In this document: positions 14,815 through 36,970 of the stretch, one piece after another
How the letters are laid out: each line of letters begins with the position of its first letter
Numbering within the stretch: position 1 is the stretch's first letter
From: Candidatus Aegiribacteria sp.
GTDB lineage: Bacteria; Fermentibacterota; Fermentibacteria; Fermentibacterales; JCC-6
Assembly (NCBI GenBank): GCA_013138965.1
Contig: WTBT01000044.1
Coordinates: 1 to 45,011, forward strand
DNA length: 45,011 nucleotides
Direction: 5' to 3'
Program-made: the position numbers and the translations under genes
The notes under the pieces: generated by a model
Seen by the model: the letters and a program-made list of their open reading frames with translations, nothing else
What the model was told of the DNA's origin: nothing
Databases searched by the model: none

Positions 14815-15330
14815 ATGATCCAAAAAGCAGTTATTGCTGTTACAGTACTGATCACCGCCGGAACTGCGGCAGGTTCACTACAAGAGGATATAAACGTTAT
14901 CCCTCTGCCGCTGATCATCGGCGACAGCCTGGCCTTCTCACTCGATGAAAGCGCCCCCATCAGCGATGAACTTTTTGATAGATTGTATCTTAGCGAGTTT
15001 CCGAATACCGGCAGCCCTTACGCGCAACACTTATGCGGTAAGGTTGGAATTGAAGGAACACCGATCCTGCTTCTGTTCTTCCAGAATTATACTGAAGAGA
15101 TCTACGGCTGGCTGATCAGCTATTCCAAGGATGATCAAGTTATTGACTGGCTCTCTGTTTACTACTGGAACTCAGAGGGTTTCGTGTCACGAAACGGTTA
15201 TGTTGACACCGATGGAACAGTCATCGTGAACGAGTGGCTTATCGATGCGTCGGGAGAAACTACTTCGATTGACACCATCTCCCTTATGGAGAATGGCTTC
15301 TTCGGGGTAACCGGCAGCACCAAAGATTAA
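14815..15330 (+). CDS. Secreted protein of unknown function
   Basis: 171 aa with a clear signal peptide (KAVIAVTVLITAGTAAGS) and AAGGTG upstream of the ATG. The mature part is acidic, with one Cys and aromatic-rich strands (YGWLISYSKDDQVIDWLSVY), suggesting a small beta-rich extracytoplasmic domain. I recognise no family. It stands alone between the ATPase gene and gene debris. Confidence 0.65.
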   Translation: MIQKAVIAVTVLITAGTAAGSLQEDINVIPLPLIIGDSLAFSLDESAPISDELFDRLYLSEFPNTGSPYAQHLCGKVGIEGTPILLLFFQNYTEEIYGWLISYSKDDQVIDWLSVYYWNSEGFVSRNGYVDTDGTVIVNEWLIDASGETTSIDTISLMENGFFGVTGSTKD

Positions 15331-31182: not shown

Positions 31183-31371
31183 CTGTCCGCGAGACCCTTC
31201 AAGGATGAATCATTAAGCTGAGAATCACAATTGAGGTTTCAGGCTCAGCCAGACTGAATCTCTGAACTATTCTCCTGAAGAATTCGCTTGCATTTCGGAG
31301 CAGGCTGGAACATAATGCGTGTATATATTCAGGGAATTACCGGAATCCGGTTTTTATCACAGGGAGATACT

Positions 31372-32553
31372 ATGCATAGGATATACTTTGATCACAACGC
31401 TACAACACCTCTGCACCCGGAGGTTAAGTCTGCGATAATAGAATCAATTGAAGTGTTCGGAAACCCTTCCAGTCTTCATGAAGATGGAAGAAGGGCTCGA
31501 ATTCTTATCGAGACGGCCAGAGAAAAGGTTGCAGCCCTGATTAACGCCGATCCGGAAGAGATCATGTTCGTGGGAAGCGGTTCGGAAGCGAATAACACCG
31601 TACTTTCACTGGTAAGCTGCAGCGGAGCCCGGTGCAGCCTGCATTCCCCTGCCGACAGTGACCTTGTAACATCGACCATCGAGCACCCATGCATCCTTGA
31701 GACATCGAAGTGTCTTGAAAACAGGGGAACAAATGTCTGGCGCGTAGGTGTGGACAGCAGGGGTCTTATAAAAATGGACGATCTTGAACAGGCAGTATCT
31801 GAGAATACATCGCTCGTGTCCATTATGATGGTGAATAACGAAACAGGCGCGATTCAGGATGTTGAAAGAGCCCTGGAAATAGCTCATGCCTCGGGAGCCT
31901 TCTTCCATACAGACGCCGTACAGGCGGTGGGCAAGCTGCCCCTGGATGTCAGGAAGCTGAATGTTGACTTTCTGACCATCTCAGCCCACAAGATCTATGG
32001 CCCGAAGGGGGTCGGAGCTCTGTACGTAAGGAAGGGCACCCCCTTCTGCCCACTGATCAGGGGTGGCCATCAAGAGATGGGGCGGCGGGCAGGTACGGAA
32101 AACACACTCGGCATTGTTGGTCTTGGAAGGGCGGTTGAACTCCGTGCTGAAGAGATGGATGCCGAGGCTGAACGCCTTGCTGAACTCAATAGAGTGCTGC
32201 GGGAGGGAATAGAAAGCCGGATCGAGAACATCCATTTCAACGGTGATCCGGAACACTGCCTTCACTCCACACTCAACGTTTCCTTTGAAGGGGTTGAAGG
32301 GGAGTCGCTTCTCCTTTACCTTGATTATGAAGGGGTGGAAGTTTCAACAGGTTCGGCATGTGCATCAGGATCCCTTGATCCATCCCATGTCCTGCTGGAG
32401 ATGAATCTTCCTGTTGAATTCACTCACGGCTCTCTCCGGATGAGTATGGGAAGGTCAACAACCCGCGAAGAGGTTGATTATGTGCTGGAAGTTCTTCCCG
32501 GCATCGTTAAGAAACTGCGCAGAATGTCCACTGTCTACGGAGGTGAACGATGA
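31372..32553 (+). CDS. nifS: NifS-type cysteine desulfurase
   Basis: 393 aa PLP enzyme releasing sulfur from cysteine for Fe-S assembly. Starts YFDHNATTPLHPEV at the ATG 31372 with AGGGAGA just upstream; an in-frame ATG at 31288 is discounted. PLP Lys in TISAHKIYGPKG, active-site Cys in STGSACASGSLDPSHVL, as in the NifS/IscS group. The stop overlaps the ATG of the NifU-like gene by 4 nt, so the pair forms a desulfurase-scaffold operon, useful to the cluster-rich enzymes in this window. NifS-type enzymes can also act on selenocysteine. Confidence 0.94.
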   Translation: MHRIYFDHNATTPLHPEVKSAIIESIEVFGNPSSLHEDGRRARILIETAREKVAALINADPEEIMFVGSGSEANNTVLSLVSCSGARCSLHSPADSDLVTSTIEHPCILETSKCLENRGTNVWRVGVDSRGLIKMDDLEQAVSENTSLVSIMMVNNETGAIQDVERALEIAHASGAFFHTDAVQAVGKLPLDVRKLNVDFLTISAHKIYGPKGVGALYVRKGTPFCPLIRGGHQEMGRRAGTENTLGIVGLGRAVELRAEEMDAEAERLAELNRVLREGIESRIENIHFNGDPEHCLHSTLNVSFEGVEGESLLLYLDYEGVEVSTGSACASGSLDPSHVLLEMNLPVEFTHGSLRMSMGRSTTREEVDYVLEVLPGIVKKLRRMSTVYGGER

Positions 32554-33164
32554 GCTCCTGGCTTTACTCGGAGAAAGTCAAAGATCACTTCATGAATCCC
32601 AGAAACATCATGTTCGACGATGAGGATTTCGAATACGATGCCAAGGGTAAGGTCGGCAATATAAAGTGCGGTGATGAGATGGTCTTCTATTTGAAGATAG
32701 ACCCGGATACACTTACGATCACCGACTGCAGATGGAAAACCTTCGGATGCGCAAGCGCCATAGCCAGTACATCTGTTCTATCGGAAATGATAAAGGGCAT
32801 GACCCTCGAGGATATTTACAATATTTCAAACGTTGATATCATGAACGAGCTCGGCGGGCTTCCGGATAACAAGGTTCACTGCTCCGTACTGGGCGACAAG
32901 GCTCTGCAGGAAGCCGTCAACAACTACTACCGCGGACATGGTATGGAAGATAAGGTCCACGATACCGAGTCAAGGATCGTATGCGAATGTCTCAATGTTT
33001 CGGAGGAAGAAATCGAATTTGCCGTACTTGAGGGAGCACGCAATTACTATCAGCTTCAGGAGATGACAAAGATCGGCACCTCCTGCGGCAAGTGTGAAGA
33101 AGATGCAAGGGAACGGCTTGCATTTTACCTGGATAAGCATTTTGGGGTGAAGGAGATCGATTAA
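32550..33164 (+). CDS. nifU: NifU-like Fe-S scaffold protein
   Basis: 204 aa. N-terminal IscU-like scaffold with the three ligand cysteines (KCGDEM, TFGCASAIAS, VHCSVLG), followed by a BFD-type [2Fe-2S] domain (CECLNVSEEEIE ... GTSCGKCEEDARE) as in the centre of NifU. The C-terminal Nfu domain of full NifU is absent. Translationally coupled to nifS. Confidence 0.93.
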   Translation: MSSWLYSEKVKDHFMNPRNIMFDDEDFEYDAKGKVGNIKCGDEMVFYLKIDPDTLTITDCRWKTFGCASAIASTSVLSEMIKGMTLEDIYNISNVDIMNELGGLPDNKVHCSVLGDKALQEAVNNYYRGHGMEDKVHDTESRIVCECLNVSEEEIEFAVLEGARNYYQLQEMTKIGTSCGKCEEDARERLAFYLDKHFGVKEID

Positions 33165-33305: not shown

Positions 33306-34298
33306 TCAGCGAATTATTGCCAGCTGGCGTTTTATTATCTCGCCGCTGCCGGTGGTAAGTTGCACGAAGTATACTCCGCTTTCCTCAATGAAAGTACTTA
33401 TAGCTCCATCAACGGGAAAACTCTCAACAACTCTTCCTGCGATGTCAAACACCTGGACTGTTCCCGTTTCCTCTGCGGGAAGCAGGCAGCTTATTGAAAG
33501 ATTTCCATTGCTCGGGTTCGGAGCGACAGTCAGTACCGCTGATGGTAAAGCAGGCTCTTCGCCGGATACACCAGTGGCAGGATCGGGAAGATCCATAAAA
33601 TTCGAATTGAGAACTTCTTTTGTTCCCGAAGCGTACTGTACGAAAGTGGCTACATTCAGGTTATCGATTGGGTGTATAGTTGGATTCAGTGTATAGGAAC
33701 CGGCCACACTGATGGTTTGCGGATATGGCCCTGTGAAGTTAAGAATCTTTCCCTGCGAACCCAGAGGATACGCAACCGGTATCCACATCATTTCCTTCCC
33801 GTTGTAACCGCCCCATGCGGATGTTGCTATCTCGTGATCCTCAAGTATCACGGACCAGACTTTGATGGGGTAGGACAGAGCGGGTTCCTGTTCTGCAGTG
33901 ATACTGATGTATGCCATTCCTCCTGTGGAATCACCGACGAAGTTGATATCGAAATCAATATGCGATGGCACAGCAAGCCTGGTGTTGATGGCATTAGCAT
34001 ATGTTGGCGGATTGGTGTTTGCGTTAATGCCGTCTATCTTCACTGTGGCGGTGCCAGTTACTCCATAGAAACCGAATCTTCCGGAGTTGAATGAATTTGC
34101 CGCGGGGCCATTGTAGAACAGGTAAAGGGGCGCAAGATCTCCCGAGGCTACGAAGGGGTTAAGAGCATTTTTAACAGCTGTCCAGCTGTTGTAACAACCG
34201 GGTCAACCAATCTGGGTGAAGTACTCGAAAAGGACAACTCTTTCAGCGGAGAAGGATACCGCTGCAAAAACCATAAGAACGAATAACAAGATTTTCAT
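33306..34298 (-). CDS. Predicted secreted thioredoxin-fold selenoprotein (Sec32, UPGC motif)
   Basis: 330 aa if TGA at 34205-34203 (codon 32) is read as selenocysteine. Start ATG 34298 with GGAG 5 nt upstream; signal peptide LLFVLMVFAAVSFSA; then VVLFEYFTQIG-U-PGC-YNSW, a Sec-x-x-Cys in the place of the CxxC of thioredoxin-fold/Omp28-like secreted proteins, followed by GVTGTATVKIDG, which resembles the cis-Pro-like strand of that family (usually GTPT). The C-terminus is a T9SS-type sorting domain (APNPSNGNLSISCLLPA, VFDIAGRVVESFP, SGVYFVQL). The frame has no other break. A conventional caller would start it at GTG 34043 and lose the signal and active site. A SECIS-like hairpin follows at 34173-34190. 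Alternative: nonsense mutation or sequencing error. Confidence 0.8.
34173..34190 (-). promoter_or_regulatory. SECIS-like hairpin for Sec32
   Basis: In the mRNA, 12 nt after UGA, the stem AACAGCT / AGCTGTT (7 bp) closes a GGAC loop; the loop begins 19 nt after the UGA. A short stem whose apical loop starts with G, placed 16-37 nt after UGA, is the accepted form of a bacterial SECIS bound by SelB. Confidence 0.7.
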
Positions 34299-34489: not shown

Positions 34490-35524
34490 TCAGAGTTTAA
34501 CAATGCTCAGCGTAGCTGTACATCCGTCGGTGTCCAGAACTCTGATACAGTAATATCCACTGGGAACACTTGTTCCATCTGAGCCGTGTCCATCCCAATG
34601 TAATGCTCCATTGAAGGAACTTCTCAGTACGGACCTTCCGGTAATATCGAATATCTCAATAGTCGCGTTTTCTGAAACACCGGTTGCGGATATTGTTACC
34701 GATTCATAGAAGGGATTCATGCCGGATGAAAGTACAATCTCCGCAGGCTCAGGATGTGGTCCACCTTCAATTCCTACGGGATTGACACATACAAGGTAAA
34801 TCTTATTGTCATCGGGATTGCTCACCCAGACGTAGTTTAAACTGCCTACATTGTAGAAAGCGATACCTCTGGCGGCTGATATAAGGCTGCTCGGAAACTC
34901 GACACCGGGATTCCCGTTGGAAGCGTAGCATTTCACCGGTGAAGAGGTATCGTTTGTTGCCGCCCATATTTCATTAGCACTCGTGTATGCAATATCGTAA
35001 ATATTCACACTGTTGATCTGGCTGATGTGAGTAGCAAAGGATACTGAAGCGCCAAGAGGCAACGGAGAGCACCTTGCAATCATTTCCGGCCCCGTTGTGC
35101 TGGTTTTGTTGCCTGCCAGATAAACGTTCGAACTGTTTCCGCCTACTCCGGTCACCGACCAGAGAGGGCTGCTTCAACAAAGAACATCCGCGTTGCCCTG
35201 ATAGCTCCCGGATGTTGTGTACTTGTAAACATGGCCGCTGTACCCGGTACCATTATCTGCGGCTACGTACAGCAGACTTCCGGCATAGCCGATTCCCGTT
35301 ACCGTTTCAGAACCTGTTGTGGAGACCGTCCAGGAGTTGTTGACCGAACCTGACATTTCATTAAGCGCATAGACAGTATTTGATGTCGACCTTGCAGCGT
35401 ATAACGTATTGTTATGGTATGCAAGTCCGGATATATTGGTGCCAGGCGCATCGAACGAACGAATGATCTGCTGTGCCGGCAGTACTGCCACGAAAGATAA
35501 CAGCAGTATGAACATTAGTTTCAT
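34490..35524 (-). CDS. Predicted secreted propeller-like selenoprotein (Cys116-Sec117)
   Basis: 344 aa if TGA at 35176-35174 (codon 117) is selenocysteine. Start ATG 35524 behind AGGAGG; signal peptide LMFILLLSFVAVLPAQQ. The body has propeller-like repeats (GLAYHNNTLYAARSTSNTVY, GIGYAGSLLYVAADNGTG) and continues across the TGA in the same frame: NADVLC-U-SSPLWSVTGVGG, then NVYLAGNKTSTT and IYDIAYTSANEIWAAT. The C-terminus is a FlgD/T9SS-like domain (GIEGGPHPEPAEIVLS, IEIFDITGRSVL, SGYYCIRV). Split by a naive caller into 35174-35698 and 34490-35155. A very good SECIS-like hairpin follows the UGA. The function of a vicinal Cys-Sec pair here is unknown; it could bind metal or be redox active (inference). 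Confidence 0.8.
35146..35164 (-). promoter_or_regulatory. SECIS-like hairpin for Sec117
   Basis: In the mRNA the stem CUCUGGUC / GACCGGAG (8 bp, one U-G pair) closes a 3-nt GGU loop; the loop begins 17 nt after the end of the UGA codon. Stem strength, distance and a GGU loop all match bacterial SECIS elements, such as that of E. coli fdhF with GGU in its loop. Confidence 0.75.
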
Positions 35525-35731
35525 GAGTCCTCCTTTTCCTGAATTGAATAGAAAGCTAAACAAGATTAAACAGTAAATTCGTACCGACTTCATATTGAAT
35601 AGAAATATTTCATGTTTCCGGAAACGTGTCAAGAACTCTTTTTGATGTAATATCCGGAAACATCTTCCGACCTTGATAATGTTTCTGATAATGAACATAC
35701 TTCATGCAGTGCCTGATGGAGGGGATTGATA

Positions 35732-36970
35732 ATGGAAAATAATGACAACTCCTGTTTCGGCGAGGATATCAAGCCTGTAATAACCCTCATGAAAAGCGCG
35801 CTTGGCGATATACTGTATTCGCTGGATGTATCACTTGATAACCCCAAAGATGTCTACAAAAAGCTGAAGATAGATAAAAAACTGGGTTGGAAGATTTACA
35901 ACGTCGCGTGCGAAGCAGACCCTTTCATTGCGGCCCAGTTCATACCTGGAAAAGCTGCATGCAGGAATCTCTTCAAAAGCTTCAGAAAACTTGGCGCGCC
36001 CAAAAAGCTTCTTAAAAGAGCAAAGGAAGCCTGCCGGAAATTCGATCTGCTGGTTGAAAAGCACGCTGACAGCAGGAAGGAATTCGACCTGATGCTGCTG
36101 TCCTGTTCTGAAAAGGGCCGGCACAAAGCCTACCTGTCTCAGCAGAAGGCGGCCTTCACAGCTTACAGTCACCTTCTCGGGGTGCAGGCCAGCACACATC
36201 TGTGTACATGGATTTTCGCTCCATCAGCCGACGGTGACTATCATGATATAGCAAGCATCAGAGGCTTTATCGATTTTAAAAGGAACAGACCGAATGTCCC
36301 CTGGCTGCTTGAATGGGCTTACTTCACAGATGACGATAATGTTCCGAAAAGCTTGATAAAGGTCGAGCCACTTGAAAAGAGGGAGCCTGATCAGGACGAT
36401 CCCACAGGTGTACCATTTTACTACAGCTTCTGTTCGGAACCGTTGCCGAATGTCATCTGTTCCCGCAAACGGGATGGACGGACTGTGCATGAACTTGAGG
36501 AAGCTCCTATCGGTAATACAGAGGCGATTACATGCGTTACAGCCCAGATATCCAGGGATGTCTTCAAAAGATACAGAACCAGGGAAGACAGGTACCGGGA
36601 GGTTGTAGTCAGAGCCAGAACGCCAGTGGAAAGGCTTGTCTTCGATCAGATAGTTCACCTGGATCTGATTGGCCCCCTTGAACCTGAATTGTTCATATTC
36701 GGCGAGTTTACCGGATACGACTGGGCAATGCCGGCAGAATTCCGAAATCCGCACAGCTGCCTTCCTATGAATGCTTCTATTCAGAAACTGGAAATGGGGT
36801 TAAAGGCTACATATACACCATACATACAATGGTACACCGACATGATAGAGGATGTATTCAGCAAACTTCAGTGGGATCCTGCAAAGTTCAGGACATACAG
36901 GATTGTAATTGACTACCCTGTTATCCCTTCAACAGTCAGCATGAGATCACTGCTCCCGAAAAGTGAGTAA
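35732..36970 (+). CDS. Conserved-looking cytosolic protein of unknown function
   Basis: 412 aa from the ATG at 35732, 7 nt after GGAGGGG. No signal peptide or membrane helix. The first 170 residues are Lys/Arg- and Cys-rich and probably helical (KSFRKLGAPKKLLKRAKEAC). The rest is mixed alpha/beta with several Cys and acidic patches (EKREPDQDDPTG) and ends in VIDYPVIPSTVSMRSLLPKS. I recognise no motif or family. It is a lone gene divergent from the selenoprotein gene. Codon use looks native. Confidence 0.7.
   Translation: MENNDNSCFGEDIKPVITLMKSALGDILYSLDVSLDNPKDVYKKLKIDKKLGWKIYNVACEADPFIAAQFIPGKAACRNLFKSFRKLGAPKKLLKRAKEACRKFDLLVEKHADSRKEFDLMLLSCSEKGRHKAYLSQQKAAFTAYSHLLGVQASTHLCTWIFAPSADGDYHDIASIRGFIDFKRNRPNVPWLLEWAYFTDDDNVPKSLIKVEPLEKREPDQDDPTGVPFYYSFCSEPLPNVICSRKRDGRTVHELEEAPIGNTEAITCVTAQISRDVFKRYRTREDRYREVVVRARTPVERLVFDQIVHLDLIGPLEPELFIFGEFTGYDWAMPAEFRNPHSCLPMNASIQKLEMGLKATYTPYIQWYTDMIEDVFSKLQWDPAKFRTYRIVIDYPVIPSTVSMRSLLPKSE

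Follow-up and report, generated by a model that had tools for sequence, protein, structure and literature searches.

Does a TGA codon that cuts a gene of Candidatus Aegiribacteria sp. (Fermentibacterota) in two end one protein, or does it encode selenocysteine (Sec) within a longer one, and if the latter, why would selenium be spent outside the cell? The question is raised by a minus-strand gene at positions 34490–35524 of contig WTBT01000044.1 (assembly GCA_013138965.1), which was analysed over its whole length of 45,011 nt and which we call the window; it is the entire contig C48 of a 2.92-Mb assembly in 110 contigs. The decoding of this UGA, codon 117, as Sec is strongly supported by the comparison of homologous genes described below, and the protein belongs to a family of beta-propeller selenoproteins that is apparently undescribed.

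One reading frame across an in-frame UGA

The standard list of open reading frames (ORFs) reports the propeller gene as two separate ORFs, and proteins of this kind are therefore easily mistaken for two hypothetical proteins. The preliminary description of the window had proposed that the two are halves of one gene, and this is what we find: the minus strand from 35524 to 34490 is a single frame of 344 codons, including the predicted Sec117, open except for one internal TGA at 35176–35174 (codon 117) and closed by a final TGA. The codon directly before the break is TGT, which confirms Cys116 (35179–35177) and the product context VLC-U-SSP.

Homologues show the same arrangement throughout the family. 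From 110 homologous loci we obtained a first set of 114 frames, 113 of them distinct, the second gene copy on G024:C71 having been entered twice (L042 and L065); for the same reason, counts over 102 TGA sites correspond to 101 distinct genes. TGA stands at the same aligned place in 101 of the 113 distinct frames, with Cys at −1 (CU) in 64 and at −3 in 37 (CGGU, and in five of them CSGU, CPGU or CDGU). A second set of 22 further TGA-bearing homologues has the TGA at the site in every case (7 CU, 15 CxxU). All 123 inspected TGA genes thus carry the codon at this position, together with a Cys at −1 (71 genes) or −3 (52 genes), and continue past it; none of the homologues ends at codon 116. Eleven more distant homologues have no TGA, neither Cys nor Sec, and a shorter loop, and row L082 is a fragment that begins after the site. 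We found no sense codon in an otherwise equal motif among the inspected relatives, and no Cys in place of Sec. The expectation of CC or CU at residues 116–117 held in its second half, with CxxU as an additional form; no CC motif was seen. An unstopped row on G039:C4 that seemed to cover the site matches the family in its tail only, so it is no Cys version.

These counts bear on the possibility that codon 117 is a true stop, or a decayed or misassembled codon, leaving two proteins or a pseudogene. UGA does act as an ordinary stop here, being the gene's own terminator, and this lends the explanation some footing. We nevertheless reject it as very improbable. The retention of the TGA at the same site in 123 of 123 TGA-bearing homologous genes excludes a chance TGA, and its Cys is retained with it; homology spans both halves across 344 residues; and the hairpin that follows shows compensatory changes across 102 folded sites. 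That UGA is instead read as another amino acid, through a suppressor tRNA or a change of code, is barely conceivable, and we reject it on the ground that the propeller gene itself terminates in TGA. The genome, moreover, encodes a full Sec system, and an in-frame TGA is present in each of its two selD genes.

The sel genes on which a Sec reading depends are in place in the source genome, all over their cut-offs: selA and selB adjoin each other on contig C88, a tRNA-Sec scores 75 bits against a cut-off of 47 (ARAGORN concurs), and two selD genes lie at G000:C74:6999-7931 and G000:C49:35877-36803. Across the 42 genomes of the phylum (G000–G041), selA is found at E ≤ 0.001 in 38, in 35 of them over the cut-off, and the four genomes without a match are 61–77% complete.

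The family is similarly widespread. Many homologues with one TGA appeared among the matches listed in a search of 60 relatives, and when a profile was run over the 42 phylum genomes, 40 of them yielded a total of 131 matches at E ≤ 1e-30, a single genome having as many as seven; G008 (79% complete) and G012 (73% complete) had none. TGA is present in 123 of the 131 matches, a number that equals that of the inspected genes without a row-by-row pairing of the two; a further five are the homologues already seen to lack the pair, and three start after the site. A second in-frame TGA lies within the matched frame of two members (L038 and L287). Among 18 genomes of other groups (G042–G059), four had matches, the best at E 5.8e-10 among the matches listed. 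A scan of named GTDB contigs, made with one peptide pattern from the family alignment and hence of limited reach beyond the phylum, gave 62 loci, all titled Fermentibacteria, Fermentibacteraceae, Fermentibacterales, Fermentibacter, Aegiribacteria, Sabulitectum or Hyd24-12.

In a tree computed without L082 and without the motif columns, the Sec members separate from the 11 other homologues with a support of 1.0, or of 0.895 once the tree was re-rooted on those 11, a placement of the root made by choice. Parsimony lets CxxU arise twice within CU (three changes in all), and the larger CxxU group has a support of 0.42 overall and of 0.94 for 32 of its 33 rows. The twofold origin of CxxU and the joint absence of Cys and Sec from the distant homologues suggest that the spacing of the pair may shift, while the loss of a single member seems not to be tolerated.

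The hairpin downstream of the UGA

Decoding would proceed through SelB and tRNA-Sec, which are predicted to insert Sec at UGA 117 with the help of a GGU-loop hairpin downstream; conservation and compensatory change point to this step indirectly. The candidate bacterial selenocysteine insertion sequence (bSECIS), CTCTGGTC-GGT-GACCGGAG, occupies positions 35164–35146 of the minus strand. Its 8-bp stem and GGU triloop are as the preliminary description gave them; the distance of 17 nt named there is that from the UGA to the loop, and the stem begins 9 nt after the UGA. Published criteria for a bSECIS, as given in the accessible part of a recent catalogue, are a loop of 3–9 nt with G in the first two places, a stem of 4–16 bp, a distance of 16–37 nt from the UGA and a minimum free energy of −7.5 or lower (PMC13188914). 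With 8 bp, GGU, 17 nt and −14.8 kcal/mol, the window hairpin lies within all four ranges. A 35-nt fold that takes in the UGA gives a z of −2.38 relative to dinucleotide shuffles, 4 of 200 of which are equally stable.

The element recurs across the family. A triloop hairpin with at least six pairs is present at 80 of the 102 sites (71 GGU, 9 GGC), 17 nt (58 sites) or 20 nt (22 sites) from the UGA, and the other 22 sites mostly have a longer, G-containing loop atop a matching stem. Over 31 distinct triloop hairpins, the six inner pairs are 100% paired versus 79.9% in shuffles, with 27 double changes versus 4.5; none of 500 shuffles gave as many, and the signal is lost when the partner strand is slid. 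Shuffling synonymous codons with the protein kept led us to reject the explanation that the hairpin is driven by the protein sequence: the 102 sites have a mean of −13.6 kcal/mol versus −8.8 in the shuffles, with a mean z of −1.80, and 89 of them fall below −1 and 40 below −2. Control windows elsewhere in the same genes (n = 408) have a mean z of −0.23, and 102 of them fall below −1. The 11 Sec-lacking homologues, folded at the corresponding position, average −0.19, one of them reaching −2.57. A covariance model of the element, in a search that scored 150 of 764 first-look candidates, recovers the four family genes of the source genome at E < 1e-6, with no further match below E = 1 (next 1.17); this speaks for specificity and not for independent sensitivity, as all four stem-loops were in the training set.

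Several of these measures weigh against so firm a view of the element. With more flank, the window hairpin reaches only z −1.43, with 17 of 200 shuffles as stable, so this single hairpin is only moderately unusual and not decisive alone. The pairing percentage is biased upward because the hairpins were preselected for stems of at least 6 bp (80 of 102). Counted as pairs with any double change, the tally is 4 versus 2.2 and is equalled in 29 of 500 shuffles. Only 50 of the 102 sites reach p ≤ 0.05 versus their own synonymous shuffles, and a z below −2 is also seen in 34 of the 408 control windows. A scan of the window with Rfam at gathering thresholds gave no match.

Fold and proposed function of the Cys–Sec protein

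The nascent chain would be exported by way of a signal peptide, recognised by eye as a hydrophobic stretch at about residues 1–18 (35524–35471) and modelled as a helix at residues 3–11, and would then fold into a beta-propeller. In the AlphaFold2 model, built from a 44-sequence alignment with a mean predicted local distance difference test score (pLDDT) of 87.1 and a predicted template modelling score (pTM) of 0.72, residues 19–246 (35470–34787) form five four-stranded blades at residues 31–66, 74–116, 123–170, 175–210 and 220–246, the last closed by residues 19–25, and an immunoglobulin-like (Ig-like) tail follows. Sec117 (35176–35174) directly follows the final strand of blade 2 and is part of the loop that connects this blade with blade 3. 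A model of a CGGU member has the same five blades (pLDDT 84.4), with its motif in the same loop, which is longer there and has a pLDDT of 66 in one block. A PDB profile search matched a Pizza6 variant (3.4e-22) and PknD (8.4e-6), and Foldseek listed PorZ first, with a poor overall TM, followed by five-bladed glutaminyl cyclases with a TM by target of 0.69–0.72. A propeller fold, five-bladed in the models, is thus supported by models and profiles. The Pizza6 protein, the PknD sensor domain and the plant-type glutaminyl cyclase share this NHL-type or five-bladed fold; Pizza6 and PknD are six-bladed, whereas our model has five blades, and the cyclases, compared by overall fold, are only 13–15% identical to the propeller protein. 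To our knowledge, none of the three is a selenoprotein.

The C-terminal Ig-like domain (residues 264–344; 34735–34493) is probably a type IX sorting domain, as suggested by the model, by profile matches just below their cut-offs and by a SprA gene in the source genome that is over its cut-off. Pfam and NCBIfam return only tails or weak propeller matches for this protein, those of NCBIfam being sorting tails, FlgD and tail parts of larger proteins. The model and these matches agree with the propeller-like and sorting domains of the preliminary description. In members with such a tail, the type IX system would attach the protein to the cell surface. Propeller-only members, mostly of the DCUGSD type (e.g. 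L100, L105 and L124), end before the sorting domain.

We consider it probable that the family consists of secreted Fermentibacterota propeller selenoproteins in which the Cys–Sec pair is a cell-surface thiol/selenol redox site. This proposal draws on the redox-typical spacing of Cys and Sec, on their being the only chalcogen residues that are conserved, on their joint presence or absence, on the twofold appearance of CxxU within CU and on a neighbouring gene for a UxxC protein. Within the loop that joins blade 2 to blade 3, the pair would cycle between a selenolate/thiol and a selenenylsulfide state and could act as an extracellular oxidoreductase of the thiol/disulfide type that reduces S–S or similar bonds, probably in partnership with the secreted UxxC protein encoded beside it in the window. 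As a guess, disulfides or polysulfides outside the cell would be plausible targets. According to the accessible part of one study, Fermentibacteria probably live as strict anaerobes by fermenting sugars and amino acids, and they occur in anoxic, partly sulfidic settings (PMC5763382).

A number of observations speak against this assignment. No conserved catalytic residue was recognised besides the pair, and the remaining conservation looks structural. The sorting-tail matches of the propeller protein reach 22.6 bits versus a cut-off of 23 and 23.3 versus 27, and 19 of the 101 first-set members lack the tail. One close copy of the propeller gene, G011:C168, has no UxxC neighbour. The accessible part of the catalogue also lists CU motifs in SaoL (MerB-like), SaoC, SaoB, HgcA, a CopZ-like protein and MbdU, the last described as a 'metal-binding double selenoprotein' (PMC13188914). 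Given the link of several such CU proteins to metals, the strongest rival to redox chemistry is that the pair, in the same selenoprotein, captures soft metal(loid)s (Hg, As, Cu) outside the cell, a role with which the dearth of recognised catalytic residues would agree. Cys and Sec are, however, the only conserved chalcogen residues, no other Cys column being filled in more than 33 of 102 rows, and the neighbouring protein is of the UxxC/CxxC type; we therefore regard metal(loid) capture as rather unlikely.

The same conserved pair, with no other catalytic residue recognised around it, might alternatively be structural, forming a selenenylsulfide bond that makes the loop more rigid or connects propellers with one another or with surface partners. 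Beta-propellers often serve as binding scaffolds, which would suit such a role. Yet Sec is costly and Cys would be enough for a static bond, and no inspected homologue has Cys at this place, which makes a structural pair quite unlikely in our judgement.

The preliminary description knew of no selenoprotein with this architecture, and our searches gave none. No propeller or type IX cargo family was seen in the accessible part of the 2026 catalogue, which covers 119 families of prokaryotic selenoproteins (PMC13188914), a search of the accessible part of deep-Sep by terms gave no trace of one (PMC12013277), and none appeared in the literature on selenium in Fermentibacter or Hyd24-12 and on selenoproteins with type IX secretion or a beta-propeller, as far as this extends beyond preprints and most subscription papers. 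In that same part of the catalogue, the CU selenoproteins SaoL, SaoC, SaoB, HgcA, MbdU and KCU-star share the adjacent Cys–Sec pair but belong to other domain families, and the propeller family also has a CxxU form; UxxC and CxxU selenoproteins (thioredoxin, AhpD-like, GrdA) share the redox-type spacing but again in other domain families, and the propeller family has no Cys homologue that we could find (PMC13188914). Most characterised selenoproteins have a thioredoxin-like fold (PMC13188914, accessible part). Here Sec is predicted on a beta-propeller, a scaffold absent from the catalogued families as far as that source could be consulted, in a family that lacks any Cys version found and has been kept and multiplied across an anaerobic phylum. 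The SELENBP1/SBP family is close in topic, combining, in the accessible part of its literature, a beta-propeller with a copper-dependent thiol oxidase activity; the window protein has no Pfam match to it. We know of no Sec encoded in SELENBP1/SBP.

The UxxC gene and other neighbours

When the entire window was scanned for TGA codons with open frames and a hairpin of at least 7 bp, two sites emerged, namely codon 117 of the propeller gene and a TGA at 34205 in the adjacent gene. This second predicted selenoprotein gene (34298–33306, minus strand) begins 191 bases downstream of the propeller gene and encodes a secreted protein whose type IX tail is over the cut-off. Its UGA (34205–34203) lies in the motif UPGC and is followed by a SECIS-like hairpin of its own, AACAGCT GGAC AGCTGTT (34190–34173). 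Relatives have TGA at that place, and all 14 fetched homologues without TGA have CxxC instead; as CxxC is the usual sign of such enzymes, the neighbour is likely of the thiol oxidoreductase type. A PDB profile search gave three weak matches, the best at E 0.019, in the tail. Of five close copies of the propeller gene that were checked, four have a UxxC gene beside them (the window, G000:C3, G016:C138 and G011:C137), and no UxxC homologue was found in the flanks of L127–L188.

On a wider view, we think it possible, if short of probable, that the phylum holds a set of surface selenoenzymes, made up of obligate-Sec CU and CxxU propellers, secreted UxxC proteins and right-handed beta-helix UxxC proteins, in part encoded by adjacent genes, and that these enzymes leave the cell through the type IX system and jointly form an extracellular selenol/thiol redox relay.

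Other genes near the family drew our attention. Two related type IX proteins are encoded beside a propeller paralogue on G000:C3 (L209; 1899–3389 and 3406–4980, minus strand), with a TGA in a UxxC motif and a GGU hairpin; one of the two has a Pfam right-handed beta-helix match. In their family, TGA occurs in nine rows from four genomes, one row having three such codons, and the site was inspected in the two L209 genes. In the window, a class-V aminotransferase (cysteine-desulfurase-like) gene and a NifU_N + BFD gene (31363–33161, plus strand) adjoin the selenoprotein pair, and we would guess that they could supply selenium to SelD. The gene upstream of the propeller gene (35726–36970, plus strand) has no Pfam match; a protein that looks similar by eye is encoded upstream of the propeller gene in L213 (5026–6267), in the other orientation. 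At position 14998 (plus strand) of L213, in G011, a further TGA (SYGUCTG) with a 9-bp hairpin lies in a long open frame.
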